Below are positions 811-34,058 of a stretch of 36,480 nt of DNA, piece by piece; positions within the stretch are counted from its first letter, which is position 1, and each line of letters opens with the position of its first letter. A model generated the notes under the pieces. It did no database searches. It had not been told where the DNA came from and saw only the letters and a list, made by a program, of their open reading frames with translations. The DNA is from Lachnospiraceae bacterium. Lineage in GTDB: Bacteria > Bacillota > Clostridia > Lachnospirales > Lachnospiraceae. The stretch spans positions 1 to 36,480 of the forward strand of contig BLMC01000026.1 in assembly GCA_011959805.1 (NCBI GenBank), given 5' to 3'. The position numbers and the translations under genes are program-made.

Positions 811-945
811 ATGGAAGTGACAACTATGAGTGCAGTACCTTGGGTATGTGCAACAATTTGTGCAGCAGCGTGCTTAGCAGATGGCCCTAGCTTTGCGGTA
901 GATTTGGCAGTGGGTATTTCTACTGCTGCAGCTTTGGATAGCTAA
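811..945 (+). CDS. Thuricin CD-like sactipeptide precursor (44 aa, three Cys)
   Basis: ATG 811 follows a consensus AGGAGG at 797-802 and the ORF ends at TAA 943-945. Trp11 is followed by Cys13, Cys17 and Cys21, exactly C-x3-C-x3-C, then by a Gly/Pro turn (25-26) and an Ala/Val/Ile/Ser/Thr-rich C-terminal half (28-41). This is the plan of the thuricin CD peptides, in which Cys5, Cys9 and Cys13 form sulfur-to-alpha-carbon bridges to residues in the second half, giving a hairpin. The WVC...CLA pattern especially recalls the Trn-beta chain. If Cys13 equals thuricin Cys5, only about eight residues remain as leader, which is unusually short. Two radical SAM genes and an ABC exporter follow, as in the trn cluster. 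Bridging and activity are inferred. Confidence 0.75.
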   Translation: MEVTTMSAVPWVCATICAAACLADGPSFAVDLAVGISTAAALDS

Positions 946-950
946 GAACC

Positions 951-999
951 AGCCTCTTATGGAGAGAATGTCTATGTCTTTTCTCTATAAGAGGCATTC
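951..999 (+). terminator. Hairpin terminator/attenuator between precursor and maturase
   Basis: GCCTCTTATGGAGAGAA pairs with TTTTCTCTATAAGAGGC across a short loop and is followed by ATTCTTTT. It begins six bases after the precursor stop and lies before the radical SAM gene, so it probably limits read-through and keeps precursor transcripts in excess. Confidence 0.75.
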
Positions 1000-1051
1000 T
1001 TTTAATGTATCAGCAGAAAAGGGGATATTGTAAAAGAGAGGTAATATATTG

Positions 1052-2428
1052 ATGGAAAAGCAAAATAAGAGAGGATTTATTTTTAAAACAGATAAAGGTA
1101 ACTTTTATTTTTATGATGATAAAACGGCATATGTTAGTAGAACAATATCATATAATGAAGAAATCGTCTATGGAACGGAAGATTTTAATTATTTAGAAAC
1201 AAATGAAGCAGTCATAAATAATATGTTGGAACATTTGGTTACTAAGCAGCTTATATTAAATGTTACCGAAGATTGCAATATGCGATGCAAATATTGTGTA
1301 TATTCAGGAAACTATACAAATAATAGAGTGCATTCAAATATTTATATGAGTGAAACGATTGCGAAAAAATCTGTAATAAAATATTTAGAACAGTTTAAAA
1401 TAAAGAGAAAATATAATATATCAAGTCAGCCTATAATTTCATTTTTCGGAGGAGAACCGCTTTTAAATTTTGAGTTAATTAAGAATATAGTTAAATTTGT
1501 GAAAGATAATTATGATGGGATGGTTGTGTATACTGTTACTACAAACGGAACCTTACTTAGTAGAGAAATCACAGATTTTTTCGTTGAAAATAATTTTGAT
1601 CTAACTGTTAGTGTAAATGGTAGCGAACAAGAGCATAATAGGTTACGTGTATTTGGAAATGGATTAGGGAGTTACGATATAATTAAAAAAAATTTAAATT
1701 ATGTTTTTGAACAATACCCTGATTACTATGCTCAAAAAGTTTATTTCTCTGTGGTATATGACACGGGAACGGATATGGTTGCTTTAGAGAGTTTCTTTAC
1801 AGAAGAAAAATTGTTTAGGAATAAACTTAGTTCACTCAGTGAGGTAGTATCATCTTTTACGAATTGGTATGCTCAATATGATAAAACAGAAAAGGAAAAA
1901 TTTATTAGTAATAGAAATAACTTAAAACAAAAATTTTTATCCAAGATATATACAGATGATTCCATAAATCATGTTTTAAGAAAAATGTTTGGTGACATGT
2001 TTGTTTTAATATTAAATAGGAGATTTTGTGATAAAGGAAAAATGGAAAAACCTTCTGTACTTCCGTATACTGGAGCTTGTATTCCGGGCACGAAGGTTAG
2101 TGTAGGGTGTGATGGTAAACTGTATCTATGCGAAAAGGTTAATTGTGCAAATCCTATAGGAAATGTCGATGAGTGGATAGATTCAAAGTGTATTAAGACT
2201 TTATTGGACGAGTATAATAAAGTCGGTGTAAAGTGTATAAATTGTCCAATTCAATCTTTATGTCCTTCGTGTTATCGGCTATTAATGGATGAAAATGGGA
2301 GATTGGATATGGATCAGCTCAAAGGTTGCGAAAAAATAATCCAACAATTTATGCAAGGGTTTAGGAATCTGTATTCACTAATGGAAGATGGAAAAGATGT
2401 TTACAAAATATTCTTTCCCAAAAAGTAA
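1052..2428 (+). CDS. Radical SAM/SPASM peptide maturase, CcpM-like (458 aa)
   Basis: Likely the enzyme that installs thioether bridges on the 44-aa peptide. The CxxxCxxC motif (C75, C79, C82 in CNMRCKYC) binds the SAM-cleaving 4Fe-4S cluster, and a FFGGEP motif follows. The C-terminal third has the Cys pattern of a SPASM domain: CIPG, CDGKLYLCEKVNC, then CINCPIQSLCPSC and a late GC. The CKYCVYSG context is shared with the CcpM homologue at 31522-32973, so the two are related. I chose ATG 1052 over the adjacent TTG 1049; AGAGAGG at 1035-1042 serves either. It sits between the precursor and a second radical SAM gene. Whether bridging is to alpha carbon (sactipeptide) or beta/gamma carbon (ranthipeptide) cannot be read from the protein. 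Confidence 0.85.
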   Translation: MEKQNKRGFIFKTDKGNFYFYDDKTAYVSRTISYNEEIVYGTEDFNYLETNEAVINNMLEHLVTKQLILNVTEDCNMRCKYCVYSGNYTNNRVHSNIYMSETIAKKSVIKYLEQFKIKRKYNISSQPIISFFGGEPLLNFELIKNIVKFVKDNYDGMVVYTVTTNGTLLSREITDFFVENNFDLTVSVNGSEQEHNRLRVFGNGLGSYDIIKKNLNYVFEQYPDYYAQKVYFSVVYDTGTDMVALESFFTEEKLFRNKLSSLSEVVSSFTNWYAQYDKTEKEKFISNRNNLKQKFLSKIYTDDSINHVLRKMFGDMFVLILNRRFCDKGKMEKPSVLPYTGACIPGTKVSVGCDGKLYLCEKVNCANPIGNVDEWIDSKCIKTLLDEYNKVGVKCINCPIQSLCPSCYRLLMDENGRLDMDQLKGCEKIIQQFMQGFRNLYSLMEDGKDVYKIFFPKK

Positions 2429-2484
2429 CAAGAGATACAGTCATTATTGTCAATGCCTGACAAATTCCAAAAGGAGGAGATAAA

Positions 2485-3642
2485 ATGTTTTATCTTTTTA
2501 GAGAAGATTGTAATATAGTATATGGTGTAAATGGAGCTTGTATATATGATTTGGGAAATGGTAAAATGTATAGCATAAAAAAGAATGAAAGTATTGTTTT
2601 GCAAGCTATGCAACAGGGAAAAACGATAAAAGACATATATGAAAAAAATGATCATGCTACGGTTGATATGGTTTGTAAACGCTTAGAAGAGGCGAGTATA
2701 GTAACTAAGTCAGAAACCTTTTGCCCTCACGAAGAATATAGAGAAGGCAAGTACAAGACATCTAGATTAGAAAAGGAATATAGAATACATACTTGCTTTT
2801 TGGAATTACCTTTTGATTGTATGCAAAGTTGCATTTATTGTGAATCCAATAAATTATTAGGATGTTTTGCATGTTCAAAAGTCAAAAAAAGTTGTACTTT
2901 GGATTTTAATTTTTATAGTAATGTAATAAAGGAAATTCTGGGATTAGGGTGTAAAAATTTTGTTTTTTATGGCGGCGATATATTAAGTCACTATTTAGAA
3001 CTAAAAGAATTAATGGATTTGTTCGATAAGCAAACAAGCATTGGCTTGATTCTGCCAATAAAAGACGATGTAAAAGAAATTTCCAAAGTATTATCTGAAA
3101 GAAGTAATGTTTATGTAGTTTTAAATGTAGACTATAATAAAATGGGAAATTATACTTTTCAACAAAGAAAAAATATAAGTTATAATTTTAATGTTTCTTT
3201 AGAAGAAGGGAAAAAGGCTTTAAGCGAGCTTTTACAACTTAGGGAAAGGGGTATTAACTATATGATCAGTTTCTTTTCCGATAAAAAAAGTAATTTTAAT
3301 TATAGCCGCCAATTGCCACAGATCCAAATGGATAAAAAAATGTATAAATTGGTAGAAGAAGTTAATCCATGTTTATTTGGGAAAATTACTATAAAAAGCA
3401 ATAAAAGAGTATATCCATGTATTAATAGCCGATGTGAGATTGGCGATATTTCTGGAGATATAAAGGAAGGGTTAGAAAACAGTTTTGAAAAATTGATTAT
3501 GTATTGGGAAAGCTCATATATTAAAAGGACTAATTGCGCTATATGTAAATATGGGAAAAGTTGTGTGGATTGCAGGAGTTATGAAGAAAATTTTGAAAGG
3601 GATCTTACGGAAAAGGACTGTAATGGTTATTTGGAAGACTAA
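2485..3642 (+). CDS. Second radical SAM protein with N-terminal PqqD-like region (385 aa)
   Basis: ATG 2485 follows AAGGAGGAG. Residues 1-90 look like a winged-helix RiPP recognition element (the LGNGKMYSIKKNESIVLQ pattern). A radical SAM core then has C112, C116 and C119 (CMQSCIYC) and a GGDI motif where GGEP is usual. C-terminal Cys (VYPCINSRCEIGDI, then CAICKYGKSCVDC) suggest a complete or near-complete SPASM domain. The protein is shorter and more divergent than its upstream neighbour. Thuricin CD also uses two radical SAM proteins (TrnC and TrnD), one expected per peptide chain; here only one precursor is visible, so this one may act as a partner or on different residues of the same peptide. 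Confidence 0.8.
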   Translation: MFYLFREDCNIVYGVNGACIYDLGNGKMYSIKKNESIVLQAMQQGKTIKDIYEKNDHATVDMVCKRLEEASIVTKSETFCPHEEYREGKYKTSRLEKEYRIHTCFLELPFDCMQSCIYCESNKLLGCFACSKVKKSCTLDFNFYSNVIKEILGLGCKNFVFYGGDILSHYLELKELMDLFDKQTSIGLILPIKDDVKEISKVLSERSNVYVVLNVDYNKMGNYTFQQRKNISYNFNVSLEEGKKALSELLQLRERGINYMISFFSDKKSNFNYSRQLPQIQMDKKMYKLVEEVNPCLFGKITIKSNKRVYPCINSRCEIGDISGDIKEGLENSFEKLIMYWESSYIKRTNCAICKYGKSCVDCRSYEENFERDLTEKDCNGYLED

Positions 3643-3771
3643 AAATAGCAATAAGGAATTTTTAATCTGAAAGTCGTGTAATATTCACTCAAGATAATTG
3701 GCTTTGTTATTTGGGTAAATATTATCTGGCTTTTGAGATTATTATACTTAAAAATTGTGTGGGGTATCAAT

Positions 3772-5367
3772 ATGATAAGAAGAATATTGGGATTTTTGAA
3801 AAAAGAAAAATTGGCAATTATGATTATATTTTTGTTTTCATTAATTATACCTGTCCTTTCCAATATCATACCAGAATTAAATAGCAGGATTGTCAATGCT
3901 ATAATGCTTAAAGATTTTAATACTATAATAGTTTTGACGATCCTTTTGGTTTGCGCATACACAGGTAAAACCTTTATCAATATCTTAATGCAAAATAAGA
4001 TTATAAAATTAAATTTGGACATTGTTACGAAACTGAAAATGGAAATTACTTCAAATATAATTAATCAACCAATTTCTTTTCATGATAATATGTCTAGTCA
4101 ATATATGGTTTCCAGAATTAATGAGGTTGATAATTTTTCTAAACTCTTTTCGACAGAAATCTTTTCATTTCTTACTAATCTTTTTGCTGCGGTCTTTGCA
4201 CTATTTATGATAGCGCGTCGCAGTGTTGTATTAGCAGTGATAGCTTTTTTGTCTTTACCTATATTCTGGGTTATTTCTAAAAAATTATTTAGCAAAATGA
4301 GCGTTCAAATAAATAATTCTTTAGAAGCATCTGCAAAAGCAAATGAAAGTTTGCATACAACACTAATGGGAACTTATGATATTAAGCAATTTAACGAAGA
4401 AGACAAATTACTTGATAAAGTATTTGGAGATATGAGGAAGTTAGCTTCAAAATTAGCTTTACAAAATGCAACAGTCAATAAGAGTGGAAATTTGTTAAGT
4501 TTGACGACATATGTTGTTCAAACATTATTGTTAGGAGCAGTAGCATTGACAATAGCACAAGATAAATTGGGAGTTGGAGACTATGTAGCATTAGGTCAGT
4601 ATTTTGGATTATTGTTTGCACCTATAATATCTGTACAAGCAATTAATATAAGCATTAAACCAGCATTAGTTGCAATGAAAAGAATAGATGAATTTGTACA
4701 GAAAGAAGAAAAGAAGCGAGATAAAAAGATTAAACAAATTTTAGAGATAGAAATATGTGATTTGAGCTTTTCCTATAACAATCAAAAACAGGTATTAAAT
4801 GATGTCTCTTTTAAAATACAAAAAGGAGAAAAAATCACTATTACTGGTAGTAATGGAAGCGGAAAAACAACATTGGTAAAAATATTGTGTGGATTTTATC
4901 CTGATTATAATGGAAAGGTTTTACTTAATGGGATTGAGGCAAAAGAAATATCTGAAAAGTGTTTAAGGAATCATATTGCAATGTTATCCCAAAAATCATA
5001 TCTTTTTAATACTTCAATATTGGAAAACATTCGAATGGCAAATAGAGAAGTTAATGATGAGGAATTTACAAGAAGGATAGATCATTGGAAAAAAATAGGT
5101 TTGCTTGATAATCTGAATTTAGAAGAAAATGTAATTGAAAATGGTAAACAATTATCAGGAGGTCAAATTCAAAGAATCGCTTTAGCAAGGGTATTGCATA
5201 GAAAAGCAGATGTTTATATTTTTGATGAATTTTCTAATTCTTTAGATGATAGTACAAAACAGCTAATTAGAGATGTAGTGGATAGTGAATTTAAGGATAA
5301 AATTTGTATATTTATAGTACATGATAATTTGCTGGATGATTTGATGACATATAAATATCAACTTTGA
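3772..5367 (+). CDS. ABC exporter, fused membrane and ATPase domains (531 aa)
   Basis: A half-transporter with about six membrane helices in residues 15-300 and an ATPase domain in 325-531. Visible motifs are Walker A GSNGSGKTT (359-367), signature LSGGQ (461-465), Walker B VYIFDE (481-486) and the switch His517. No C39 peptidase domain precedes the membrane region, so leader removal must be done by another protease. ATG 3772 has GGGG seven bases upstream and was preferred over an in-frame TTG at 3733. By position it exports the matured 44-aa peptide or provides self-protection. Confidence 0.85.
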   Translation: MIRRILGFLKKEKLAIMIIFLFSLIIPVLSNIIPELNSRIVNAIMLKDFNTIIVLTILLVCAYTGKTFINILMQNKIIKLNLDIVTKLKMEITSNIINQPISFHDNMSSQYMVSRINEVDNFSKLFSTEIFSFLTNLFAAVFALFMIARRSVVLAVIAFLSLPIFWVISKKLFSKMSVQINNSLEASAKANESLHTTLMGTYDIKQFNEEDKLLDKVFGDMRKLASKLALQNATVNKSGNLLSLTTYVVQTLLLGAVALTIAQDKLGVGDYVALGQYFGLLFAPIISVQAINISIKPALVAMKRIDEFVQKEEKKRDKKIKQILEIEICDLSFSYNNQKQVLNDVSFKIQKGEKITITGSNGSGKTTLVKILCGFYPDYNGKVLLNGIEAKEISEKCLRNHIAMLSQKSYLFNTSILENIRMANREVNDEEFTRRIDHWKKIGLLDNLNLEENVIENGKQLSGGQIQRIALARVLHRKADVYIFDEFSNSLDDSTKQLIRDVVDSEFKDKICIFIVHDNLLDDLMTYKYQL

Positions 5368-7888: not shown

Positions 7889-7928
7889 GAAATCGGATTT
7901 AAGTATAAGACTTATTATCCGATTTTTT
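7889..7928 (+). terminator. Terminator of the GntR/ABC operon
   Basis: AAATCGGATTTAAG pairs with CTTATTATCCGATTT around a short loop and is followed by a T-run. It lies about 40 bases after the small membrane protein. Confidence 0.75.
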
Positions 7929-8396
7929 AATGTTATTTTTAGATATTTAAATACATGCTACATGTCATATTAGGGATTTTATTAATATATTTTGATCAGC
8001 AAAATAAGTATTTTAGGATTGTTATTTTTAATGATTATTTGGTGGTATGTAGTCTAATAAATCTGAAATGGAACAATTTAATGTGTGGCATATCCATACA
8101 AGCACTTCCGTATCTAGCCAAGTAATAGTATTATTGATATATCCATTTAGTTGAGAACGTTGAATTTCTGCTTTCTAGCAGAATTTGTTTTTGCTTAAAC
8201 TGGACTCTTTTAGTAGCTGTCCTAAGTGATATTTTAATACTTCCGTTTTGGTTTATTTTCTACTTCCTTGTTGAATGGTGTCATAATAAGCAGGCACAAA
8301 TTGTTTGACTAATTAAGTATACATTAGTTACAATTTACTTATCAGTTATAGAATATTATGGATAAGAAATTATATCATAAGAAAGGAGAGAAACGA
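7929..8396. other. Gene-free region upstream of an IS3 remnant
   Basis: No supported gene in about 470 bases. A 7-bp hairpin (TTCTGCT/AGCAGAA at 8166-8183) followed by a T-rich stretch could be a weak terminator. The rest looks like decayed accessory DNA. Confidence 0.3.
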
Positions 8397-8508: not shown

Positions 8509-9009
8509 AAGAAATATTCTAAAGAATTGAAACAGCAAGCGGTTTTGGATTATTTAGCAGGTCGTGGTTCTCAGAATGATATCTGTAAAAAATATGGAAT
8601 TCGTTCAAAAGCTAAGTTATAAACCTGGATAAAGAAGTATAATGGTCATGAAGAGTTAAAATCTTCTGGAACAGGAGGAACCACTATCATGACCAAAGGA
8701 AGAAAAATCACTTTTGAAGAACGAGTCGAAATAGTACAGTATTGCATCGCACATGACCACAATTATGCCAAAACAGCAGAAAAATATCAGGTATCTTATC
8801 AACAGGCACGTAGTTATACGATTAAATATGAATCCGGCGGAGTAGAAGCTTTAAGAGATAATCGCGGAAAACGAAAAAATCCTGATGAAATGGATGAGGT
8901 GGAAAAGCTGCGTGCCGAAGTTAAAATTTTAAGGGCAGAGAAAGAACGTGCTGAAATGGAGGTTTCTTTCCTAAAAAAACTCGAGGAGATAGAGAGGAGG
9001 TGGGACTAA
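8509..9009 (+). pseudogene. IS3-family transposase OrfA, interrupted by a stop codon
   Basis: One frame runs from about 8509 to TAA 9007-9009 and encodes two IS3 OrfA helix-turn-helix units: YSKELKQQAVLDYLAG with CKKYGIRSKAKL, then ITFEERVEIVQYCIAHDHNYAKTAEKYQVSYQQAR. A Leu/Lys coiled coil (about 8905-9000) follows, as in OrfA. TAA at 8620-8622 sits where Gln or similar is expected before TWIKKY, so only the second half (ATG 8689, 106 aa) could still be made. Inactive. Confidence 0.8.
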
Positions 9010-9646: not shown

Positions 9647-11245
9647 ATGAAAACCATTAATTATATAAGACAAGTATCAATAAGCGAATTAAAAAAAAGA
9701 AAAAAATCTGTGTTTACCCTTATAATGATTCATTTTACTACTATGATATTATCTGTTTTATTACCACTTTTGAATGGAAACTTTTTAGACTTGTTGATAT
9801 CTGACATAGCTGTGGTGGAATTGCTGAGATATGCTTTAATAATAATAGTAATTGGAATAATAAGTTCTTTATTTGCTTATATTTATAATGTATTGAGTAT
9901 TAGATTAAAAAATAGAATTGCATTTGAGATTAATTTAAATGTTATTAATCATATGCATAAAATTGGATTGAGAAAATTTGAAGAGTATAATATTTCCTAT
10001 TTAAATCAAAGGGTTAATGCTGATGCAACAACAATATCTGATTTTTTCTTTGATAATTTTCTTGTCATTGCTATGAATGTTATTCAATTCTTTGTACTAA
10101 TTTATATTTTAGTTAGAATAAAGATTATATTTTTTTTGATTATTCTGCTATTTATACCTATCTATATTTTTTTATATGCTTGGTTAAAAAAACCATTATA
10201 TTCAAATGGTTCAAAGTACAAGGAAGAACAAAATATTTTTTTTGATAAATTAAATGAGCAGTTTGAATTAAATAAAGAAATTAAGATTCATTCTGATATT
10301 GAAACGCAAGAAATTGATGTTAGAAAGCAGTATGAATATTTTGTACACTCGCTAATTAAGCTAACAAAAATTTCTAGTCTATTTAATTCACTTGACGGAA
10401 TAATTTGTTTAGTTTTTCAAGCCATTTCTCTTTTAGTAGGAGGGTTAATGGTTATTGAAAATTGGATTACATTAGGGGAATACAGCATTTTGAGTTTATA
10501 CTTTACAAATATTTTGGGTATTATTAAATATTTCTTTAGCTTTGGAAAAACTTATCAGGACTTTAAGATTTCAGTAAATAGGATGAATGATTTATTGTTA
10601 ATTCAAGAGGAATGTGATGGAAAAAATAATATAAATAATTTCAATAGTATTACTGTAACTTATAACAATAAAAAATATAAATTTGAAAAAGGGAAATTAA
10701 ATATTATCTGTGGAAAAAACGGAATAGGAAAAACTACTTTGTTATATATATTGACGGGCATATTACAAAATCCAGAATCGCAAGTTTGTTTTGAGGATAC
10801 ACCTAGCAGTGTAATAAATATGTATGAAATAAGAAAAAAGAATGTGTCCTTTATGGTGCAAAATGAAAAAACAGGAAATGTAAAAGTAAAGGATTATTTA
10901 TATAGAAGTTTAGAAATAAATTCAAAGGAAGAACTGGAAAAAATAATTGATGAAAAGAATCTTAGATATGTATTTTGCAACGCTAGATTTAATTTATATG
11001 ATTATTTAGGAAAGTCCCTTGGAGGAATATCGGATGGTGAGCGACAAATTATCATTTTGTTTAAAACATTAGCTAAAGAGTGTAACGCATTATTGTTAGA
11101 TGAACCCTCATCAAATTTAAGTCTTTCTTTTACGGCTCAAATAATTGATTATTTGAAAAGTATTATGGATAAAAAAATTGTAGTTATTGTATCTCATGAA
11201 AATGCGTTTATTGAAAACGCTGATTATGTTATTGAAGTTATTTAA
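9647..11245 (+). CDS. ABC exporter (532 aa) of the Asn-repeat peptide cluster
   Basis: Residues 20-300 form about six membrane helices and 335-532 an ATPase. Walker A is GKNGIGKTT (356-364), Walker B ALLLDEP (481-487) and the switch His is 517. The signature is GGISDGE (459-465) rather than LSGGQ, a divergent but recognisable form. No peptidase domain is present. The gene is very AT-rich even for this window. AGAGGA precedes ATG 9647. It lies 49 bases upstream of the 78-aa precursor and most likely exports the mature peptide. Confidence 0.8.
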   Translation: MKTINYIRQVSISELKKRKKSVFTLIMIHFTTMILSVLLPLLNGNFLDLLISDIAVVELLRYALIIIVIGIISSLFAYIYNVLSIRLKNRIAFEINLNVINHMHKIGLRKFEEYNISYLNQRVNADATTISDFFFDNFLVIAMNVIQFFVLIYILVRIKIIFFLIILLFIPIYIFLYAWLKKPLYSNGSKYKEEQNIFFDKLNEQFELNKEIKIHSDIETQEIDVRKQYEYFVHSLIKLTKISSLFNSLDGIICLVFQAISLLVGGLMVIENWITLGEYSILSLYFTNILGIIKYFFSFGKTYQDFKISVNRMNDLLLIQEECDGKNNINNFNSITVTYNNKKYKFEKGKLNIICGKNGIGKTTLLYILTGILQNPESQVCFEDTPSSVINMYEIRKKNVSFMVQNEKTGNVKVKDYLYRSLEINSKEELEKIIDEKNLRYVFCNARFNLYDYLGKSLGGISDGERQIIILFKTLAKECNALLLDEPSSNLSLSFTAQIIDYLKSIMDKKIVVIVSHENAFIENADYVIEVI

Positions 11246-11294
11246 GATGTAAAAGTTATTTTTACATAATATTAAGCAGAAAGGAGGAAAATCT

Positions 11295-11531
11295 ATGAGT
11301 GTAATGTCTAATTATGAAAAGCCAAGTGTTCAGGTTGATGGAGCTGAACCACGTGGTGTGCTGATAGTACCGGCAACAGTAGCGATCAATGCAAATGTTG
11401 GACTAAATGCAAATGCTATTTTAAATGCAAATGTTTATACAAATGCGAATGCTAATTTAGTAGCAAATGCAAATGGTGCGGTTAATGCAAATATTGGCGC
11501 TAACTGGAACTACACAGATTCATCCGCGTAA
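11295..11531 (+). CDS. Asn-ladder RiPP precursor, Cys-free, polytheonamide-like core (78 aa)
   Basis: AAGGAGGAAAATCT precedes ATG 11295. Residues 1-25 look like a leader with charged residues (YEKP, VDGAEPRG). From residue 31 the peptide is a run of Asn, Ala and hydrophobic residues. All 15 Asn between 32 and 72 fall on even positions, while odd positions are Ala, Val, Leu, Ile, Gly, Thr, Trp or Tyr. Asn34, 40, 46, 52, 58, 64 and 70 form an unbroken i/i+6 series; 32-50 and 54-72 form two further series. Polytheonamide has the same one-parity, every-sixth Asn arrangement, where alternating D-residues form a beta-helix and N-methyl-Asn side chains stack along it. There is no Cys, so thioether chemistry is excluded. 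The leader is not proteusin (nitrile hydratase-like). Maturation is inferred from neighbours. Confidence 0.85.
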   Translation: MSVMSNYEKPSVQVDGAEPRGVLIVPATVAINANVGLNANAILNANVYTNANANLVANANGAVNANIGANWNYTDSSA

Positions 11532-11543
11532 AAAGTTGTACAA

Positions 11544-11572
11544 CTTGGTGCTTTGAAAAAAGCACCAAGCAT
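11544..11572 (+). terminator. Hairpin between precursor and radical SAM gene (attenuator)
   Basis: CTTGGTGCTTT (11544-11554) pairs perfectly with AAAGCACCAAG (11559-11569). The T-run is weak (CATTTAAAA), so partial termination or transcript-end protection is more likely than a full stop. Confidence 0.6.
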
Positions 11573-11604
11573 TTAAAATCATAAAAGGTAGAAAGGAGAA
11601 ATCT

Positions 11605-12630
11605 ATGGAAAGAGTTTTTGACAGTAGTTTATCAACAAATTATTCTGTTATGAAAAATTTGTCAGGACCAGTTACTGTGTCATTTGATATAACGACAAAA
11701 TGTAATTTAAGATGTCTTCATTGTTATAATAATAGTGGAGCAAATCCAGCACCAGAAGCATCAGATGAAGAAATACTAAAGATTGCAAAACAAATTGCAG
11801 ATTTGCATCCTTATAATGTTTGTTTGTGCGGAGGAGAAACACTATGTAGAAAAAATATACTAGATATAATGGATGTTTTGCGTGGGAATGTTGGAAGAAT
11901 AAGCATGGTCTCTAACGGTTTTGCTTTAAAAAAAGAGGTGGCTAAAGAGCTAATTGAACATGGATTGGATCATATTCAAATTAGTTTGGATGGAACAAAT
12001 AAGTTTCAGCATGATACTTTTCGGGGGATGCAGGGTTCTTTTGAACAGGCAGTAAAAGCAATAGGATATTTAAAAGAGTATAAAATATCAAGAATTGCAA
12101 CATCTTTAGTTCCCAATAAACTGAATTACAAGTCAGTAAAAGAATATATGAATTTATGTTATAGTCTGGGTGTGGATAATGTCAGAATGATGCCTTTTAT
12201 TCCATCTGGGAGAGGGAAAACGGTAGGTAGAAACTTAATGTTATCCGATTTGGATTACTTTTACTTTTTGCGTGATGTCGAAGAAGAATGCTACATATAT
12301 GCTGGAAAAATGGAAATTGAATGGGGAGATCCTCTGGACCATATGCGAAGAATGCCATTCAATGCATATAACGGCTTGCGAACATATTGCATGGAAGTAA
12401 AAGCTAATGCAGATATAACAGTAACAACATATTTGCCAATTGTTGTAGGGAATTGTCATGAACATTCCCTAAAAGAATACTGGGATAAAGGATATTGTTG
12501 TATATGGAATGACAAGCGAGTGGTTGAGCAAGTTGACAAAATCCAAAATATATATGATTTTGATTCATTTGAACCGGCTCCTTATTCGGGTGAAAAAATA
12601 TATTATGATATAATTGGAGGTAAAATATGA
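11605..12630 (+). CDS. Radical SAM peptide-modifying enzyme, candidate epimerase (341 aa)
   Basis: AAAGGAG precedes ATG 11605. The core has C33, C37, C40 (CNLRCLHC), GGE at 75-77 and the SLDG segment near 127-130, all standard for radical SAM. The C-terminal part keeps few Cys (C262, C284, C298, C299) and lacks a complete SPASM pattern, so at most one auxiliary cluster is likely. Its presumed substrate, the 78-aa peptide, contains no Cys, so sactionine or ranthionine formation is ruled out. Given the alternating core, peptide epimerisation (as by PoyD or OspD, which use a Cys as hydrogen donor) is the best fit. Side-chain C-C cross-linking through Trp71 or Tyr73 is the main alternative. Confidence 0.8.
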   Translation: MERVFDSSLSTNYSVMKNLSGPVTVSFDITTKCNLRCLHCYNNSGANPAPEASDEEILKIAKQIADLHPYNVCLCGGETLCRKNILDIMDVLRGNVGRISMVSNGFALKKEVAKELIEHGLDHIQISLDGTNKFQHDTFRGMQGSFEQAVKAIGYLKEYKISRIATSLVPNKLNYKSVKEYMNLCYSLGVDNVRMMPFIPSGRGKTVGRNLMLSDLDYFYFLRDVEEECYIYAGKMEIEWGDPLDHMRRMPFNAYNGLRTYCMEVKANADITVTTYLPIVVGNCHEHSLKEYWDKGYCCIWNDKRVVEQVDKIQNIYDFDSFEPAPYSGEKIYYDIIGGKI

Positions 12631-13403
12631 GATACAAATTTAATGAAGGCAGTTATACAGTAAGAAAAGAAGAAAATGATACAATTTCACTGATGATAAA
12701 GAAAACAAATCAAATAATTTATTTAAATAGTGCTGCAAGAAAAATTTTGTTTGATCCGAATAAGACAGGAGATTTGGACAAGTTTGTACAAACTTTGAAT
12801 GTGGAAGATAAGGAGCAAGCATATAAAGATTATGAAGAGCTTTTATATCAGTTGGAATGTTTTGAATTGGTAAAAATTGAAAAGGAAGAACAAGAAAGTA
12901 TTTTGGGCTGTAAAATTGCGGGAGAAAAAGATTATAATGAAATAGCTCGATTCATAACTGCAAATATAAAAAATCAGTTTAGCTATTCAAATGTTGTAAA
13001 TATGAAATATTATAATCCAATAAGTATTCGCACTAGACAATTCAATAATAATGAGTATAATATTTTATATTTTTCGGAAGGTAAAATTATTGCAGATTTA
13101 GTAGTAGCTTTACCTCCTAAGACATCAGGGTTTGTTGTTGTTTATTTTAATGCTGTATTTTTCAGCAAAGAATTAAATGAAAGTGACAGTAAGAGAGTAC
13201 TCAAAGAATTACTTGAATATGCAAGTAAATTATTTGAAAAAAATTTCTGCAAACTTAGATTTCATTATTTTAATGAAATGCAAAATTGGTTGCTTGATAC
13301 TTTGGAAAATATGGGATTTAACAAGGTATGTACTTTTGAAAAGGAATTACGTGAAGATAAAGCATTGACAGTTTACGATAAATTCTTTGATAAAAACAGT
13401 TAA
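12627..13403 (+). CDS. RRE-GNAT fusion: peptide-binding domain plus acetyltransferase-like domain (258 aa)
   Basis: ATG 12627 overlaps the radical SAM stop by four bases and has GGAGG just upstream, so translation is coupled. Residues 1-85 resemble a PqqD-like recognition element (LMIKKTNQIIYLNSAARKIL pattern). Residues 95-258 look like a GNAT fold, with a long beta-rich middle (FVVVYFNAVFF) and the end pattern WLLDTLENMGFNKVCTFEKELR typical of GNAT C-termini. The likely role is acylation of the peptide N-terminus or a side chain after leader removal. Polytheonamide likewise carries an N-terminal acyl cap, though made differently. No acyl-CoA pyrophosphate loop could be assigned with certainty. 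Confidence 0.6.
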   Translation: MRYKFNEGSYTVRKEENDTISLMIKKTNQIIYLNSAARKILFDPNKTGDLDKFVQTLNVEDKEQAYKDYEELLYQLECFELVKIEKEEQESILGCKIAGEKDYNEIARFITANIKNQFSYSNVVNMKYYNPISIRTRQFNNNEYNILYFSEGKIIADLVVALPPKTSGFVVVYFNAVFFSKELNESDSKRVLKELLEYASKLFEKNFCKLRFHYFNEMQNWLLDTLENMGFNKVCTFEKELREDKALTVYDKFFDKNS

Positions 13404-13458: not shown

Positions 13459-14856
13459 ATGATAAATTACAATAGACAATATACAAATAATTTATCTGAA
13501 ATATTAAATCGTATTAACTATGTATTTGTGTTGAAAAATATTAGAGGCAGTTCTGATTTTTTTGATCCTTGGTATAATTTTGACATGATGGAAAAATTAC
13601 TGAATACATTAGATATAAGATATAAGAATGCATTCAGGCTCTTGTATTTAGGGCAAAGGGTTCCGTATAGAGATTTAGTTGAAGAATTGAGTGAAGAGCA
13701 AATTGATAGCATGATAAAGGCTAAAATTTGGATAATGGATTCAGGCTATGTAAAAACTAATAATCTTGTGGTCTTAGTTTATGAAGGACTAAAAATATTA
13801 ACAGAAATTAACCCTTGGTATTCAACATGCATAAAGAATAACACTGATGTCTATATTGGCATTGATAGTTTACGATTAGCAGAAAACATTCATTTTAAAA
13901 AGGATGCAATAGTACTTGATTTATGTAGTGGTACGGGGATTCAAGGTATAATTGCAGCAAGGTCTGCCCAAAAAGTCGTCTCCGTAGAAATAAATGAGAA
14001 AGCGGCATCTGTAACGCAGTTTAATATAGCATTGAATGGGTTAGAAAATATTATTGAACTTCGTAAAGGAAATTTGTATGATGTTTTGGATGATGAAAAG
14101 TTTGATTATATATATGCGAATCCGCCTTTTATACCAATGATTTCGGACGTAAATTATCCGATTTGCGGAGCTGGTGGAGAAGATGGGTTAATGATTTTGA
14201 ATAATATATTCGAACGATTAAACATATATTTAAAAGTCGGAGGAGAGGCTATCGTTTTTTGCCAGTGTTTGGGTGATGAAAAGAAGATTTTTTTTAATGA
14301 AAAAGTTAAAGATCTGTGCGAAAGAAATAATCAAGACGTGCTTTGTTTAATGCAGGATAGAATTCCTTTGGAATATCAATTACGAACTTTGACTTCTTTG
14401 ACGAAACTGTTTAATGCAGATTTTGATGAAAGCAATTTTGAAAGAAAAATGTCCAAAATCTATAATAAACTTAATGCAAAATATTTATACAGTATTTTGT
14501 ATCAGATAAAGCAAAAACAAAATGGAGGAGGTGAGTTGTCGCTCTTGCAGTTTGAGAGTAAGTGGGATGCAAATAGTCATGCAAAAGAAAATAAGGCGGT
14601 CAATATCGTTACTGATAATGAAAGCTATGTGATAAGTGACTTAAGTATGAAAAGAATTGGCTATATTGATCAAGAGGCATTTGATATATATAGCTTGTTA
14701 AAAAATGATAAATCAGTTAGCGATATAACAAATGAGTTATATGATAAATACAAGCAGAAGTCTAAATACAGTAGATTTGGAAAACCAAGCTTTTTATGTG
14801 CTGTATTGGATAATTGCTTAAGAATGGAACAATTGGGGCTGATTCATAGAGTATAA
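13459..14856 (+). CDS. NPPF-motif SAM methyltransferase with C-terminal RRE (465 aa)
   Basis: A Rossmann methyltransferase in the middle of the protein shows motif I VLDLCSGTG (152-160), the acidic end of strand 2 (VVSVEINEKA) and motif IV NPPF (221-224). (D/N)PP(Y/F) marks enzymes that methylate a planar amide or amino nitrogen, such as PrmC/HemK on Gln side-chain amides. A C-terminal block (about 376-465, with EAFDIYSLLKNDKSVSDI and CLRMEQLGLIH) resembles a PqqD-like recognition element, so the enzyme may bind the leader directly. With an Asn-ladder substrate, amide N-methylation of Asn is the natural prediction, as PoyE does in polytheonamide. ATG 13459 follows AGGAGG at 13440-13445 with a long 13-base spacer; ATG 13435 and TTG 13387 are alternatives. 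Confidence 0.75.
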   Translation: MINYNRQYTNNLSEILNRINYVFVLKNIRGSSDFFDPWYNFDMMEKLLNTLDIRYKNAFRLLYLGQRVPYRDLVEELSEEQIDSMIKAKIWIMDSGYVKTNNLVVLVYEGLKILTEINPWYSTCIKNNTDVYIGIDSLRLAENIHFKKDAIVLDLCSGTGIQGIIAARSAQKVVSVEINEKAASVTQFNIALNGLENIIELRKGNLYDVLDDEKFDYIYANPPFIPMISDVNYPICGAGGEDGLMILNNIFERLNIYLKVGGEAIVFCQCLGDEKKIFFNEKVKDLCERNNQDVLCLMQDRIPLEYQLRTLTSLTKLFNADFDESNFERKMSKIYNKLNAKYLYSILYQIKQKQNGGGELSLLQFESKWDANSHAKENKAVNIVTDNESYVISDLSMKRIGYIDQEAFDIYSLLKNDKSVSDITNELYDKYKQKSKYSRFGKPSFLCAVLDNCLRMEQLGLIHRV

Positions 14857-15025: not shown

Positions 15026-15295
15026 TTGGCTTTGCATGAAATCTTAGATGCAGTAGCGGATGATAATAGAAGAAAAATTATGATTAAACTTAAAGGAGGG
15101 AAAATTAATTCAGGAGATTTGGCGAAAGAGTTAAACATGACGCCACAAGCACTTTCATATCATCTGGCAAAGCTTAAGAAAGCTGATTTGATTTACGAAA
15201 CACGTTATAAGAACTACATTTATTACGAATTGAATTTATCTGTGCTTGATGAAGTAATCATTTGGTTTAAAGGAATACAAGGAGAAGAAAAGTAA
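15026..15295 (+). CDS. ArsR-family repressor, SdpR-like (89 aa)
   Basis: TTG 15026 is preceded by AGGGGGTG at 15012-15019. The whole protein is one winged helix: ILDAVADDNRRKIMIKLKGG, then SGDLAKELNMTPQALSYHLAKLKKADLI and the wing RYKNYIYYELN. It lacks the metal-binding Cys of ArsR/SmtB sensors. The size and the SdpI-like gene 85 bases downstream match the SdpR-SdpI pair of Bacillus subtilis, where SdpR is a repressor sequestered by toxin-bound SdpI. The palindrome at 14987-15008 is its probable operator. Confidence 0.8.
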   Translation: MALHEILDAVADDNRRKIMIKLKGGKINSGDLAKELNMTPQALSYHLAKLKKADLIYETRYKNYIYYELNLSVLDEVIIWFKGIQGEEK

Positions 15296-15380: not shown

Positions 15381-16040
15381 ATGAAAAAAATGAAAATGAT
15401 TTATAACACGCTTATGCTTATACCGATAGCTGTAACACTAATTGGCTTGCATTATCTGCCTGAAAGAATTCCTACACATTATAATCTGGCAAATCAAGCG
15501 GATAGATGGGGGAGCAAATATGAACTTTTGGCGTTTCCTATTTTGGTTGTTTTTTTTGGGATCTTTATGCGTGTACTTGCAAATTATCATAAAAATCAGG
15601 AAAAATTCGGTTCAAATAATGAGAGGATATGTTTTATTTCAGGTATTATATGCATGATTACTTTTAGTTTTTTGAATTATTATTTCTTGTATGTAGGGAG
15701 TAAAAGTATTGAGAACATTTCGATACTTGCTATTGATTTAGAGCAATTTGTTTTTGCAATGTTAGGAATTGTTCTGATAATTATAGGCAATATTTTACCA
15801 AAAATAAAAATGAATTCGGTTACTGGACTTAGAACCCGCTGGAGCATGAAAAATGAAGTAACTTGGAAAAAAAGCCAATTCTTTGGGGGAGTATCTTTTT
15901 TAATAACAGGATTTATTATAGTTATAATTAGCTTTATAACGAAAGGAATAAAATGTATGATTCTTTCTTTAGTAATTTTTGGCACTGCAATAATTATAGA
16001 TATTTTTTACACTTATTGGATTGCTAAAAAAAACAATTAA
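15381..16040 (+). CDS. SdpI-family immunity-type membrane protein (219 aa)
   Basis: The N-terminal half has the signature of the DUF1648/SdpI family: LIGLHYLPERIPTHYNLANQADRW, two helices flanking it. The C-terminal half contains the SdpI-like segment KMNSVTGLRTRWSMKNEVTW between further helices; about six helices in total. In Bacillus subtilis SdpI protects against the SDP toxin, which collapses the proton-motive force, and signals to SdpR. Placed directly after a cluster predicted to make a helical membrane-active peptide, it is the best immunity candidate. AAAGG precedes ATG 15381. Many genomes also carry SdpI homologues away from any toxin, so the pairing is an inference. Confidence 0.8.
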   Translation: MKKMKMIYNTLMLIPIAVTLIGLHYLPERIPTHYNLANQADRWGSKYELLAFPILVVFFGIFMRVLANYHKNQEKFGSNNERICFISGIICMITFSFLNYYFLYVGSKSIENISILAIDLEQFVFAMLGIVLIIIGNILPKIKMNSVTGLRTRWSMKNEVTWKKSQFFGGVSFLITGFIIVIISFITKGIKCMILSLVIFGTAIIIDIFYTYWIAKKNN

Positions 16041-20022: not shown

Positions 20023-20166
20023 ATGGAACAGAACAAGAATTTTGAGAATGAAAATGAGGAAGTAAAGGCAGATTTCGAAGAGGTGAAATTGACGGATTGT
20101 GATGTGCCGATTAATTGTCCATTTGGACTTGATCTAGCAGAAGATGCATTTCCGGATCATCACTAA
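20023..20166 (+). CDS. RiPP precursor, acidic 47-aa peptide with two Cys
   Basis: ATG 20023 follows AAGGAGG. The first 22 residues are rich in Glu, Asn and Lys (leader-like). The C-terminal part contains Cys26 and Cys32 (C-x5-C) in TDCDVPINCPFGLDLAEDAF, ending PDHH. It is the only peptide gene between a regulated promoter and five radical SAM genes, and a hairpin follows it as with the other precursors here. The five Asp and two Pro in the core and the terminal His pair are unusual for a membrane-active peptide. I know no family that it matches. Likely modifications are Cys-based or C-C cross-links plus methylation, judged only from the enzymes. Confidence 0.75.
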   Translation: MEQNKNFENENEEVKADFEEVKLTDCDVPINCPFGLDLAEDAFPDHH

Positions 20167-20239
20167 AATGAAAGTTAATACCTTATTTCTTTTGTAAATC
20201 AACACTTGAGTAACAAGGGAATGATTGAAAAGGCAAGAT

Positions 20240-20294
20240 AAGCTGTATGGTAAGAATTGTTAGGTACATAGAATTTTGCCATACAGCTTTTTTG
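20240..20294 (+). terminator. Terminator/attenuator between precursor and maturases
   Basis: AAGCTGTATGGTAAGAATT pairs with AATTTTGCCATACAGCTT (two mismatches), followed by TTTTTG. Partial read-through would be needed to express the maturases unless they have another promoter. Confidence 0.8.
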
Positions 20295-20335
20295 TGGAAC
20301 ATTAATGCTACGATTGAGGATAGGAAGAATTGTTA

Positions 20336-21718
20336 ATGTTAACTGAAAATATAATGTTATTTAAAACGCATAACAGATATATAATGATTGATAATTTTAC
20401 TTTTAATATTTTTTTACTGAATGAAACAACTTTTAAAATCCTGGAAGCCTTAAAAAGAGGATTAAATAAAGGTGAAGTTGAAAAAGTATTTGGAAAAAAT
20501 AATGTAAGTAAAGTTTGTGATTACATAAATGATTTAAAAGAAAAGAAGGCAATATATGATCTTAAAGAAGATTTCTATAATAGTAAAAAGATAGTAGAAG
20601 GTATTATTCCTAGGCAGCCAGAATTATTGGAGGCTGTATTTATGCTTGTACAATGCTGTAATATGCAGTGTAAGTATTGTTATGGGAATAGCGGTCAGTT
20701 TGGAAATAAAAGTGTCATGAGTAAGGAAATGGCAAAAAAGTATTTTGAATATTTTTTAAAAAGTTGTGAAGAGCATTCTCGCCAAAAAGTTAAATTTTTA
20801 GGTGGTGAACCATTATTAAATTTTGATATTATGAAATATATTATAGAGCTGTGGGAGCAATGGAAAAGCTCATTCTTAGGAAGAGATTTATCATTTTCAT
20901 TTACTACAAATGGAACACTTTTTACTCCTGAAATAGTTCAATATATTAAGGAAAAGAAAATAGGTGTTACAATTAGTTTAGATGGGCCTGAGAATATACA
21001 GAATAGTATGAGAAAATTCCATGATGGAAGTTTCACTTACAATGCTGTAATGAGAGGAATAGATTTACTTGAAAAATATGAAGTATTTTTTACAATTAGG
21101 GCGACTGTAACAAGCAATGAAAACTTGGATGAATTATACCAATATTTTGAGGAAAAAAATTTTAGTATTGTGCATATTATACCTGTTGATTATCCAATGA
21201 AAGCAAAAGTTGAGGACTACCAATGGGATTTAAAACAATATGGAGATTATGTTAATAGAGAAATGAATTTGCTCACAGAAGGTTGTGATGAGATTAGCGC
21301 TGGTAATAATAATACATTTAAAGCAAGGCAGATGAAGATTATATATAATGATATTAATTTTAGAAATAAAACATTTCCCTTTAAGTGTAGTGCTGGATGG
21401 TGGAGCGCTGTTTTTAGCTCTGATGGGTACATATATCCATGTCATAGATTAGTTGGCAATAAGCATTATCGCATAGGTGATTATTTAAAGGGGATTGAGG
21501 TAAATAAAATAAAAGAAATATATTTTAAAATACTCGAAGCAAGTAAGAAATGTAATTTTTGTATAGCATTTACAACATGCAAAAGAAGATGTATGGCTCA
21601 AATGGCTTTGCCAGATGGAAATTTTGCTGAGATTTCAGATGAATTATGTGACATATATCGAGATTCAAATAAACATATTTGGGACTTGTTTTTTAAAATT
21701 CGAGATGTGGTAGATTGA
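20336..21718 (+). CDS. Radical SAM/SPASM maturase with N-terminal RRE (460 aa)
   Basis: Residues 1-90 resemble a PqqD-like recognition element. The radical SAM motif is C108, C112, C115 (CNMQCKYC), then FLGGEPLLNF. The SPASM part has CSAGWW, YIYPCHRLVGN, IGDY and a final CNFC...CKRRC...LCD set. It is about 45 percent similar by eye to the next gene, so the two arose by duplication. ATG 20336 is seven bases from AGGAAG; an in-frame TTG at 20330 is less likely. Presumed to install a radical-derived cross-link on the 47-aa peptide. Confidence 0.85.
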   Translation: MLTENIMLFKTHNRYIMIDNFTFNIFLLNETTFKILEALKRGLNKGEVEKVFGKNNVSKVCDYINDLKEKKAIYDLKEDFYNSKKIVEGIIPRQPELLEAVFMLVQCCNMQCKYCYGNSGQFGNKSVMSKEMAKKYFEYFLKSCEEHSRQKVKFLGGEPLLNFDIMKYIIELWEQWKSSFLGRDLSFSFTTNGTLFTPEIVQYIKEKKIGVTISLDGPENIQNSMRKFHDGSFTYNAVMRGIDLLEKYEVFFTIRATVTSNENLDELYQYFEEKNFSIVHIIPVDYPMKAKVEDYQWDLKQYGDYVNREMNLLTEGCDEISAGNNNTFKARQMKIIYNDINFRNKTFPFKCSAGWWSAVFSSDGYIYPCHRLVGNKHYRIGDYLKGIEVNKIKEIYFKILEASKKCNFCIAFTTCKRRCMAQMALPDGNFAEISDELCDIYRDSNKHIWDLFFKIRDVVD

Positions 21719-21738
21719 AAAATAGAAGGAGAAAAGAT

Positions 21739-23193
21739 ATGGACTTAAAAGGAATAAATTTAGTTGAAAGTAACAATCGATATATGCTAGTAGATTACTT
21801 AGCCAGAAAACCAGTAATTATTAGTAAAAGAGTATATGATATTTTATCTAAAATGAAAAGTGAGGTTTCAATAGAAACACTGAAGGAAGAGTATGATGCG
21901 GATTTGATTGAAACTGTACTAAATACAGTAAATGATATGATACAGAGAGGGGTTATTGAAAATACAGATAGAAATTTTTATGTGGAAGGAGAAAGGGTAA
22001 TTTGTAATTATAAAGAACAAGATGTTGAATTACTTGAGGGAATGATTATGGTTTCGCAAGATTGCAATATGGCTTGCACATATTGTTATGGGGGAGAGTC
22101 GGGTACATATAATCAAAAGGGATTAATGAGTATCGAAATGGCTGAAAGGTGTTTTCGATACTTACTTTCTGTAGGAACTGAAAGGGAATTTCAAAAGGTT
22201 ATTTTTTTTGGTGGTGAACCTTTGCTAAATATGGAGGTAATAAAACATATTGTACTGTTGTGGGAAAAAATAAAACAGAATTATGATGGGCGGAAAATAT
22301 ATTTTGCATTAACTACAAATGGTCTGCTTTTAAGTTCAGAAATTGTAAAGTTTTTTAAAGATTATAATGTGGGAGTTTCTATTAGTTTAGACGGTCCTAG
22401 AGAAATTCATAATGCAAATCGTGTTTTGCAAAACGGTTCTGCATCATTTGATAAAGTAATGCAAGCAATTGAACTTATGCGCAAATGTGAGTTACCTTTT
22501 TCGGTTAGAACTACTATTACAAAAAATGTTGATCTTGATAAACTGTACAAATTTTTTGAAGAACAGGATTTTGATATTCATACAATTTCTTTAGTTGATT
22601 ATCCGATGGTGCATCCTCAACGGGAATATCAATTTGATTTAAAAACATATGAAGAATTTTCAAAAAGACAACGAGAAATAGTTCATGATGGATGTGAAGA
22701 TATTTTGCGGGGAAAGAAAAACTCATTTAAGGCAAAACAAATGAGTGTGTCGTTTCATAATTCAAAATGTTCAGATTTTCATTTCATATGTGGAGCAGGA
22801 TTTTGGTTGGCAACATTTGGTTTGGATGGGTATATATATCCTTGTAATCGATTAGTCGGGCATGAAAAGTTTCGTATAGGTGATATTGATAATGGGATAA
22901 ACAAAGATAAGATGGTAAAAATATTGGAAGAGTTTTTGGATGCTAGTAAAAATTGTAAATCTTGTTGGGCAGCATCGCATTGTAAGGGAAGATGTTTCCA
23001 CCAAAAAGTAAATAACAAAGGAGCATTAAAGGAATTACCTATAGGATTATGTGACATATATAGAGAAAATATCGCCGATTCATTATTTTTTGCTCATAAA
23101 TTTAAAAATTATATACAAGAAAACAAAAAAGATTTTGGAGAAGCGATAATAAGATATGATGCAGATTATATGATGAAAAATTATAAAAAGTGA
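21739..23193 (+). CDS. Radical SAM/SPASM maturase, tandem paralog (484 aa)
   Basis: AAGGAG precedes ATG 21739, 20 bases after the previous stop. N-terminal PqqD-like domain, motif C109, C113, C116 (CNMACTYC), FFGGEPLLNM, and a SPASM region with CGAGFW, YIYPCNRLVGHEKFRIGDI, CKSC...CKGRC and LCDIYR. Long blocks match the upstream paralog (for example LVDYPM, QFDLKTYEEF, KAKQM and LCDIYR). Its C-terminus is about 35 residues longer. Two paralogs acting on one short precursor suggest different sites, a heterodimer, or recent subfunctionalisation. Confidence 0.85.
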   Translation: MDLKGINLVESNNRYMLVDYLARKPVIISKRVYDILSKMKSEVSIETLKEEYDADLIETVLNTVNDMIQRGVIENTDRNFYVEGERVICNYKEQDVELLEGMIMVSQDCNMACTYCYGGESGTYNQKGLMSIEMAERCFRYLLSVGTEREFQKVIFFGGEPLLNMEVIKHIVLLWEKIKQNYDGRKIYFALTTNGLLLSSEIVKFFKDYNVGVSISLDGPREIHNANRVLQNGSASFDKVMQAIELMRKCELPFSVRTTITKNVDLDKLYKFFEEQDFDIHTISLVDYPMVHPQREYQFDLKTYEEFSKRQREIVHDGCEDILRGKKNSFKAKQMSVSFHNSKCSDFHFICGAGFWLATFGLDGYIYPCNRLVGHEKFRIGDIDNGINKDKMVKILEEFLDASKNCKSCWAASHCKGRCFHQKVNNKGALKELPIGLCDIYRENIADSLFFAHKFKNYIQENKKDFGEAIIRYDADYMMKNYKK

Positions 23194-23202
23194 GGCATAA
23201 AA

Positions 23203-25693: not shown

Positions 25694-25697
25694 GGTT

Positions 25698-27461: not shown

Positions 27462-27512
27462 AGATAAGAAAATTCAGATATGCATTAAAATCATAAAAGG
27501 AGAAGCACTATT

Positions 27513-28196: not shown

Positions 28197-28197
28197 A

Positions 28198-31226: not shown

Positions 31227-31433
31227 ATGAAGAAATTGGGAAAGAAGAGTAGCTTAGAGAGTGGAACATTTTTCTCTTATGCTTGTAACTGTAATTGTGC
31301 AGGAATTATTTGTGGGGCTTGCAATAATTGCAACACCAAAAATCCGACAGCAACGGGCTCATACGCTTTGTTTTATGCTACGCAATCACAGATGAACACT
31401 AAAGCATTTTCTGTTCCGGCAATATTGGGTTAG
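31227..31433 (+). CDS. CLI_3235-family Cys-rich bacteriocin precursor (68 aa)
   Basis: AAAGGAG precedes ATG 31227. The N-terminus MKKLGKKSSLESG is the family hallmark, followed by six Cys in 16 residues (20, 22, 24, 29, 32, 35; CNCNC...C..C..C) and a 30-residue Cys-free tail rich in Thr, Ala, Ser and Phe. The family (TIGR04065) accompanies the CcpM maturase; here that gene follows. Six Cys donors and many Thr/Ser/Ala acceptors downstream suit thioether formation, but linkage is unknown. Confidence 0.85.
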   Translation: MKKLGKKSSLESGTFFSYACNCNCAGIICGACNNCNTKNPTATGSYALFYATQSQMNTKAFSVPAILG

Positions 31434-31439
31434 GCTACG

Positions 31440-31497
31440 ATATTGCAGTAAAGATTTACCCTCGCTCTGTTTACAGAGTGAGGGTAAATTGCAATAT
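31440..31497 (+). terminator. Long hairpin between CLI_3235 precursor and CcpM gene
   Basis: An inner stem ATTTACCCTCGCTCTG/CAGAGTGAGGGTAAAT with a 4-base loop is extended by ATATTGCA/TGCAATAT after an asymmetric six-base bulge. There is no T-run, so it probably stabilises or processes the precursor mRNA rather than terminating; it also ends only about 10 bases before the CcpM ribosome site. Confidence 0.65.
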
Positions 31498-31521
31498 AAA
31501 AGATTTAAGGAGAAAGTGAAC

Positions 31522-34041: not shown

Positions 34042-34058
34042 AAGATTGGAGAACGATT

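Follow-up and report, generated by a model that had tools for sequence, protein, structure and literature searches.

An asparagine-ladder precursor from a Lachnospiraceae bacterium as a candidate polytheonamide-like beta-helix peptide with a small enzyme set

Introduction

Few known peptides are as heavily modified as the polytheonamides, products of a sponge symbiont. PMC9259500 gives NX5N, two asparagines (Asn) six residues apart, as their core motif, and PMC11285071 describes N-methyl-Asn as essential for the beta-helix of polytheonamide B. The present work concerns a precursor peptide with an Asn ladder of this kind, and the genes next to it, in 36,480 nucleotides of DNA from a Lachnospiraceae bacterium (assembly GCA_011959805.1, contig BLMC01000026.1), a stretch which is called the window throughout. 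We consider it probable that the peptide is the precursor of a ribosomally synthesized and post-translationally modified peptide (RiPP) whose core is epimerised on the Asn parity and N-methylated, giving a beta-helix predicted to perforate bacterial membranes.

The poy set listed in PMC9505594 comprises PoyB, PoyC, PoyD, PoyE, PoyF and PoyI, and PoyE is described there as N-methylating eight D-configured Asn; AerE is described in PMC11285071 as leader-independent and as acting on one Asn configuration only. The window locus resembles the polytheonamide and aeronamide clusters in its NX5N core with Asn on one parity, its AerE/PoyE-like methyltransferase and its radical S-adenosylmethionine (SAM) enzyme. 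It differs from them in its Firmicute carriers, its SdpI-like neighbour and the absence of an NHLP leader match, and from poy in that its block holds three conserved tailoring-type proteins, among which neither a C-methyltransferase nor a LanM-like dehydratase nor an oxygenase was seen.

Other described systems share parts of this arrangement. The epipeptide YydF of Bacillus is likewise a Firmicute RiPP with a short precursor, one radical SAM enzyme, export by an ATP-binding cassette (ABC) transporter and a membrane target; it is not known to have an Asn ladder or a methyltransferase. A further difference is that the epipeptide of PMC8326336 carries two D-residues. The leaders of lasso and linear polyphosphorylated peptides have the same YxxPx[V/I/L] tag for a RiPP recognition element (RRE), and the window's core is a ladder instead. 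The SDP toxin of Bacillus subtilis is alike in that a repressor is paired with SdpI immunity beside a peptide that acts on membranes; SDP itself is an unrelated peptide made by SdpA, SdpB and SdpC, none of which was recognised in the window block.

Results

The 78-residue precursor is free of cysteine (Cys) on translation and has 16 Asn, at positions 6, 32, 34, 38, 40, 44, 46, 50, 52, 54, 58, 60, 64, 66, 70 and 72. All are even, 15 of them fall in residues 32-72, and Asn34, 40, 46, 52, 58, 64 and 70 lie six apart, with 12 N/N+6 pairs overall. When residues 31-73 were shuffled 200,000 times, a single Asn parity recurred once and the N/N+6 pair count was never matched. The odd positions of residues 31-71 are small or hydrophobic, with Ala at 10 of 21, Val at 3, Leu at 3, Ile at 2, and also Thr, Gly and Trp. 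The original prediction had claimed a Cys-free peptide with this parity, this spacing and this kind of odd residue, and each of these claims was borne out. The ladder is confirmed as real and far beyond chance, and with NX5N and Asn on one parity the window peptide has a polytheonamide-type core.

A search with the single precursor returned 4 relatives, and a profile of ten precursors returned 51 matches up to E 1. Parity was counted in 47 precursors (P0001-P0005, P0120-P0159 and those of loci L012 and L014), among which incomplete ones were kept, including P0129, P0153 and P0159; outside the count were P0160-P0166 (7 matches, E 0.22-0.83), the precursor of L011, which is near-identical to P0128, and that of L022, which was found later. 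One parity holds for 562 of 567 core Asn, and 42 of the 47 precursors are perfect. The off-parity Asn occur in P0129, P0148, P0151, P0153 and P0159, and P0129, P0153 and P0159 are fragments in which the counted stretch takes in leader residues. In 26 non-redundant cores, 303 of 307 Asn share one parity vs 184 +- 4.6 in shuffles (maximum 201), and there are 228 N/N+6 pairs vs 65 +- 6 (maximum 86). A ten-row alignment has Asn34, 46, 52, 58 and 60 in all rows and Asn40, 64 and 66 in at least 90% of them, with positions 32, 38, 44 and 50 variable. The earlier expectation that homologues keep the i/i+6 parity therefore agrees with what was found, and Asn placement among them is not random. The ladder is 41 residues in the window peptide (median 45 in 41 relatives), a membrane-spanning length to set beside the 48-49 residues of polytheonamide in print.

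The methyltransferase encoded in the same block (METHYLTRANSFERASE) has the structures 7rc2-7rc6 as its best solved relatives, with E 5.5e-12 from the single sequence and E 1.1e-26 over 300 residues from the profile; the next structures in the profile search were MJ0882 (4.1e-13) and HemK (4.2e-5), which shares the NPP motif. The entries are named only 'Methyltransferase family protein', and we take them to be AerE, the Asn side-chain N-methyltransferase of aeronamide, which presumably acts on D-Asn. By their alignment rows, 7rc3, 7rc4 and 7rc5 differ by Y137F, D141A and N231A, and the counterparts Y156, D160 and N245 are invariant in 36 of 36 aligned members of the window family. Its closest solved relative and its retained active-site residues place the protein with AerE/PoyE, given our assumed name for 7rc2, and Asn side-chain N-methylation is a well-supported prediction for it. 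The reading frame is open from 13387, and relatives start at the ATG at 13459. Together, the conserved parity and this presumed AerE-like neighbour support the polytheonamide-type interpretation that the original prediction had offered.

The ladder and the methyltransferase occur together. A genome scan with the methyltransferase found 0 loci from the single sequence and 8 from the 36-member alignment. The relatives include metagenome-assembled genomes (MAGs) of Lachnospiraceae (L010) and Clostridia/Clostridiales (L011, L012), Anaerococcus tetradius (L014), Enterococcus sp. PF1-24 (L015) and Caloranaerobacter azorensis (L016), and the named carriers are Firmicutes. These six loci have full surroundings, and in all six a ladder gene lies within 3 kb of the methyltransferase gene, with a radical SAM gene and a GNAT-like gene also present; L013 and L017, truncated at the ends of their contigs, stand outside this count. 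The first ladder scan had a match in 6 of 10 loci, the ones without (L003, L004, L013, L017) being short or cut. Among five more distant methyltransferase relatives a ladder gene was found in L022, and none was visible in L023-L026. A filter for parity and six-residue spacing was run on 224 open reading frames (ORFs) of 30-160 amino acids (aa) with at least 5 Asn, taken from 262,052 bases. It was passed by 8, one each in the window, L010, L011, L012, L014, L015, L016 and L022, all close to a methyltransferase gene, and no further ORF passes. When 44 of the 51 precursors were compared with 78 of 114 methyltransferases, 8 pairs agreed in the length of the longest contig, which adds to the evidence for linkage.

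The cluster is patchy in its distribution. Within the genus, 1 genome of the 38 searched has the methyltransferase, and this is the genome of the window. For the family, a permissive cut-off that general methyltransferases also pass gave 7 of 397 genomes; at E 1e-20 the class gave 3 of 391 and the phylum 2 of 398, counting the window's genome. Upstream of the cluster lies a transposase-like helix-turn-helix ORF (8689-9009). L011 and L017 are MAGs from animal rectum samples, so gut microbiomes may produce peptides of this kind.

In the window the gene order is ABC exporter, precursor, radical SAM, 258-aa protein, methyltransferase, SdpR-like and SdpI-like, with the radical SAM and 258-aa genes overlapping by 4 base pairs (bp). 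The coordinates are collected in the table.

Table. Features of the ladder locus, in positions of the window
Feature	Position	Strand	Basis
ABC exporter, membrane and ATPase domains	9647..11245	+	PF00664 3.6e-23, PF00005 5.5e-17
Ribosome binding site of precursor, AAAGGAGG	11280..11287	+	Direct reading
Ladder precursor peptide, 78 aa	11295..11531	+	Translation of window DNA
Leader tag YEKPSV, residues 7-12	11313..11330	+	Fits [Y/W]xxPx[L/V/I/F/A]
Asn ladder, residues 32-72 (41 residues)	11388..11510	+	
11-bp hairpin in the precursor/radical SAM intergenic stretch	11544..11569	+	Folding energy vs shuffles
Radical SAM protein, 341 aa, CxxxCxxC and CxCGGE; candidate peptide epimerase	11605..12630	+	PF04055 9.9e-27
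258-aa protein, N-terminal RRE-like region, C-terminal GNAT fold; likely peptide-binding adaptor	12627..13403	+	
Predicted Asn N-methyltransferase, AerE-like	13459..14856	+	Homology to solved structures
SdpR-like ArsR-family repressor	15026..15295	+	NF033789 2.6e-25, 88.1 bits (cut-off 100); PF01022 4.4e-11
SdpI-like membrane protein, predicted self-immunity	15381..16040	+	PF07853 7.3e-16, PF13630 1.5e-14

The radical SAM protein would, from its context, be the epimerase. Its CxxxCxxC motif (C33, C37, C40) and its CxCGGE motif are both kept in all 13 proteins aligned, that of the window among them, and CxCGGE is found in 0 of 5 other radical SAM proteins checked in the window. The closest solved relative is SkfB, behind which EpeE/YydG matches weakly (4e-5 over 103 core residues). 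C73 and C75 of CxCGGE, candidate hydrogen donors, are invariant in the 13; for known epimerases PMC8326336 gives Cys223 in EpeE and Cys372 in PoyD as hydrogen donors. A second CxCGGE radical SAM gene is present in L011 (11808-12812) and, with a GNAT-like gene after it, in L012 (11807-13578).

The RRE-like region of the 258-aa protein was recognised by eye and from one relative. GNAT enzymes usually carry the acyl-CoA motif [Q/R]xxGx[G/A], which is absent in 6 of 7 members here; the one regex match, at residue 105 in L011, does not lie after strand 4. An active acyltransferase was rejected since the motif is not at its expected site, and the missing motif makes the adaptor role preferred: the protein is likely to bind the peptide. 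Among the structural comparisons in general, the VIA-align rows re-examine the Foldseek list and cover the families named on it.

Some 9 kb off lie B12-type radical SAM genes (24251-27461), which were considered as C-methyltransferases for the ladder peptide and set aside, because by eye no such gene lies between precursor and methyltransferase in the window, L010, L011, L012, L015 or L016, nor among the L014 ORFs listed. A Pfam scan of the window block likewise gave no B12-binding match. In L022 (G593), a radical SAM gene that looks by eye to be of the B12-binding type lies at 10328-11644 on the minus strand, next to the radical SAM gene of the ladder cluster, and C-methylation may occur in that lineage.

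The leader tag follows a leader motif in print (PMC13381572). Across 48 precursors, the 48th being that of L022, 19 leaders have YxxPx[VIL] and 19 the acidic ELSDDDL, and in 5 the YxxP tag is preceded by GG. Up to E 0.1, the window peptide (P0001) had no match to an NHLP or Nif11 model. Nine other ladder precursors were scanned; P0157 reached E 0.079 against TIGR03793 (12.8 bits, cut-off 50.9) and P0154 reached E 0.041 against an NHLP-clan model (14 bits, cut-off 40). The window peptide has no nitrile-hydratase-like NHLP leader and so is not a proteusin, yet to judge from its core and methyltransferase it would work like a polytheonamide. The claim of a short, non-proteusin leader stands, and the further claim of a new leader class holds in part: the leader is non-proteusin, but it has precedents, in the YxxPxV tag and in the double-glycine (GG-type) and acidic leaders of other ladder precursors.

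Other class assignments were also considered. P0157 exceeds the cut-off of the CTB family bacteriocin model (NF038167, 37.1 vs 32 bits), and the window peptide has no NF038167 listing in the NCBIfam scan. The window precursor carries the YxxP leader tag of lasso precursors, and no Pfam match to the Asn-synthetase-like lasso cyclase was found in four proteins of the block (the exporter, the radical SAM protein, the 258-aa protein and the methyltransferase). The core Cys of sactipeptides and ranthipeptides is lacking in the window peptide (0 Cys) and present in 2 of 41 ladders.

No C39 peptidase (PF03412) matched the exporter, and the window leader has no GG site; L010 has a similarly long ABC gene in the same place, and L011 has a precursor with a GAG end and an exporter with C39. 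Both PF07853 and PF13630 exceed their cut-offs in the SdpI-like protein (PF13630 54.3 vs 28.2 bits), which with the adjoining ArsR-type repressor places it in the SdpI family. In a whole-genome check of six relatives, SdpI was found by the cluster in L010, L014 and L016, as in the window, and not at the cluster in L011, L012 or L015; L015 has an ArsR gene and a DUF1648 half. The window's whole genome has 2 matches to PF13630, and it is one of 9 genomes, out of 30, in which this family exceeds its cut-off. In Bacillus, SdpI guards against the membrane-collapsing SDP toxin, as described in PMC6818787.

The hairpin after the precursor has a folding energy of -17 kcal/mol (z -3.4), which none of 200 shuffles equalled, and was not called by terminator prediction; it may keep precursor mRNA in excess. 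A promoter scan was uninformative, with fewer matches than the shuffle mean.

Discussion

In our best reading, the locus encodes a minimal pathway to a bacteriocin with alternating D/L residues and N-methylated Asn, which is predicted to fold as a beta-helix and form pores. The 258-aa protein would bind the YxxPxV leader tag through its RRE-like region. The radical SAM protein would convert alternating residues of the core, the Asn among them, to the D form, and the candidate hydrogen donor is Cys73 or Cys75 of CxCGGE. The methyltransferase would then methylate Asn side-chain amides along the six-residue ladder, and the methylated amides would stack outside a helix of about six residues per turn and lock it. 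The exporter, having no C39 domain, would export the peptide after protease cleavage, and the SdpI-like protein, under the SdpR-like repressor, is predicted to hold off the pore in the producer.

We also lean towards a broader view, in which Firmicutes, some animal-gut species among them, hold a stripped-down machine for a transmembrane beta-helical pore, consisting of a leader of about 30 residues with a lasso-type YxxP tag, one radical SAM enzyme of a CxCGGE epimerase family, an inactive acetyltransferase-fold carrier, a D-Asn N-methyltransferase and SdpI immunity, and in which leaders (YxxP, GG-type, acidic GAG-type) were swapped repeatedly while the ladder stayed constant. If this is true, three tailoring-type proteins would be the least machinery for a D/L beta-helix, and the CxCGGE proteins would be a new radical SAM epimerase family. 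The class would be opened to ordinary genetics, some carriers being cultured (Anaerococcus tetradius, Enterococcus sp. PF1-24, Caloranaerobacter azorensis), and a candidate explanation would be at hand for the protection of producers from the beta-helix pore that they make.

The peptide could also be an Asn-methylated RiPP on which the radical SAM protein does other chemistry (a cross-link, an oxidation or an alpha-carbon bond), leaving an all-L or otherwise built membrane peptide. The closeness to SkfB and the contextual assignment of the epimerase are consistent with this, as is CxCGGE at loci where no ladder gene is seen (L024, L025). Set against it are the ladders themselves: with 45 precursors examined, Cys occurs in 2 of 41 and any F, W, Y or H in 20 of 41, with none in 21. 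This leaves thioether or aromatic cross-linking without a common partner residue and makes it the disfavoured chemistry. A strict single Asn parity is a requirement of alternating L/D, and D-configured Asn is the PoyE substrate in PMC9505594. We regard this alternative as unlikely and retain the alternating D/L reading.

Less likely again, and in our view distinctly improbable, is a product made as proposed that acts as a signal or other secreted molecule. SdpI and SdpR in Bacillus also relay a peptide signal, and the pore activity is itself predicted; on the other side are the protection by SdpI against a membrane-collapsing toxin (PMC6818787) and the description of polytheonamide, the model of this architecture, as an ion channel (PMC8183687).

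Two caveats attach to the evidence from the ladder. The precursor DNA is a loose 18/36-bp tandem repeat, and for one peptide alone repeat expansion is conceivable, so that homologues are needed to decide; and the homologue set was gathered by similarity and is not independent of the Asn pattern. The homologue leaders are nevertheless of differing kinds while the ladder is shared, and the Asn codon differs at shared sites (3 of 11 in L010, 1 of 13 in L014, 4 of 8 in L015, 2 of 11 in L016) with parity kept. The homologues argue against repeat expansion as the full explanation. That the ladder is a surface or structural repeat (beta-solenoid, adhesin or ice-binding type) born of DNA repeat slippage, as the tandem repeat and the sole NCBIfam match of the window peptide (a 955-position adhesin model) might suggest, is very improbable, because that match is single and weak (E 0.048), parity survives changed codons and neighbours, and a radical SAM gene and a methyltransferase gene adjoin the ladder ORF (55-134 aa) in 8 of 8 clusters with DNA.

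The preferred reading, of an epimerised and N-methylated pore former, is new as a variant, in its Firmicute carriers, small enzyme set, other leader types and SdpI neighbour. No Firmicute ladder cluster appeared in the searched literature, whose coverage of the polytheonamide field is incomplete, so an earlier description is possible.

Other gene sets

Beside the ladder gene of L011 is a Nif11-leader-like ORF (7889-8197; 24.3 bits, cut-off 32.3). In L025 and L026, distant methyltransferase relatives adjoin radical SAM genes with no visible ladder gene and point to a different product; L025 also has acyl-carrier-like ORFs by eye.

The window holds further RiPP-like sets. The second (811-5367) has a 44-aa ORF, a CcpM-like radical SAM protein (TIGR04068, 256.7 bits, cut-off 500), an ABC transporter and a Cys-rich protein of 385 aa that fits no family convincingly. 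The third (20023-30390) has a 47-aa ORF and three radical SAM proteins, two of which are PapB-like with scores under the cut-off, together with two B12-type radical SAM-like proteins and, by eye, an ABC exporter. The fourth (31227-34319) has a CLI_3235-like Cys-rich precursor (23.5 bits, cut-off 26), with a TIGR04069-like protein below its cut-off, and a CcpM maturase (507 bits) and a TIGR04066 protein that both exceed theirs.
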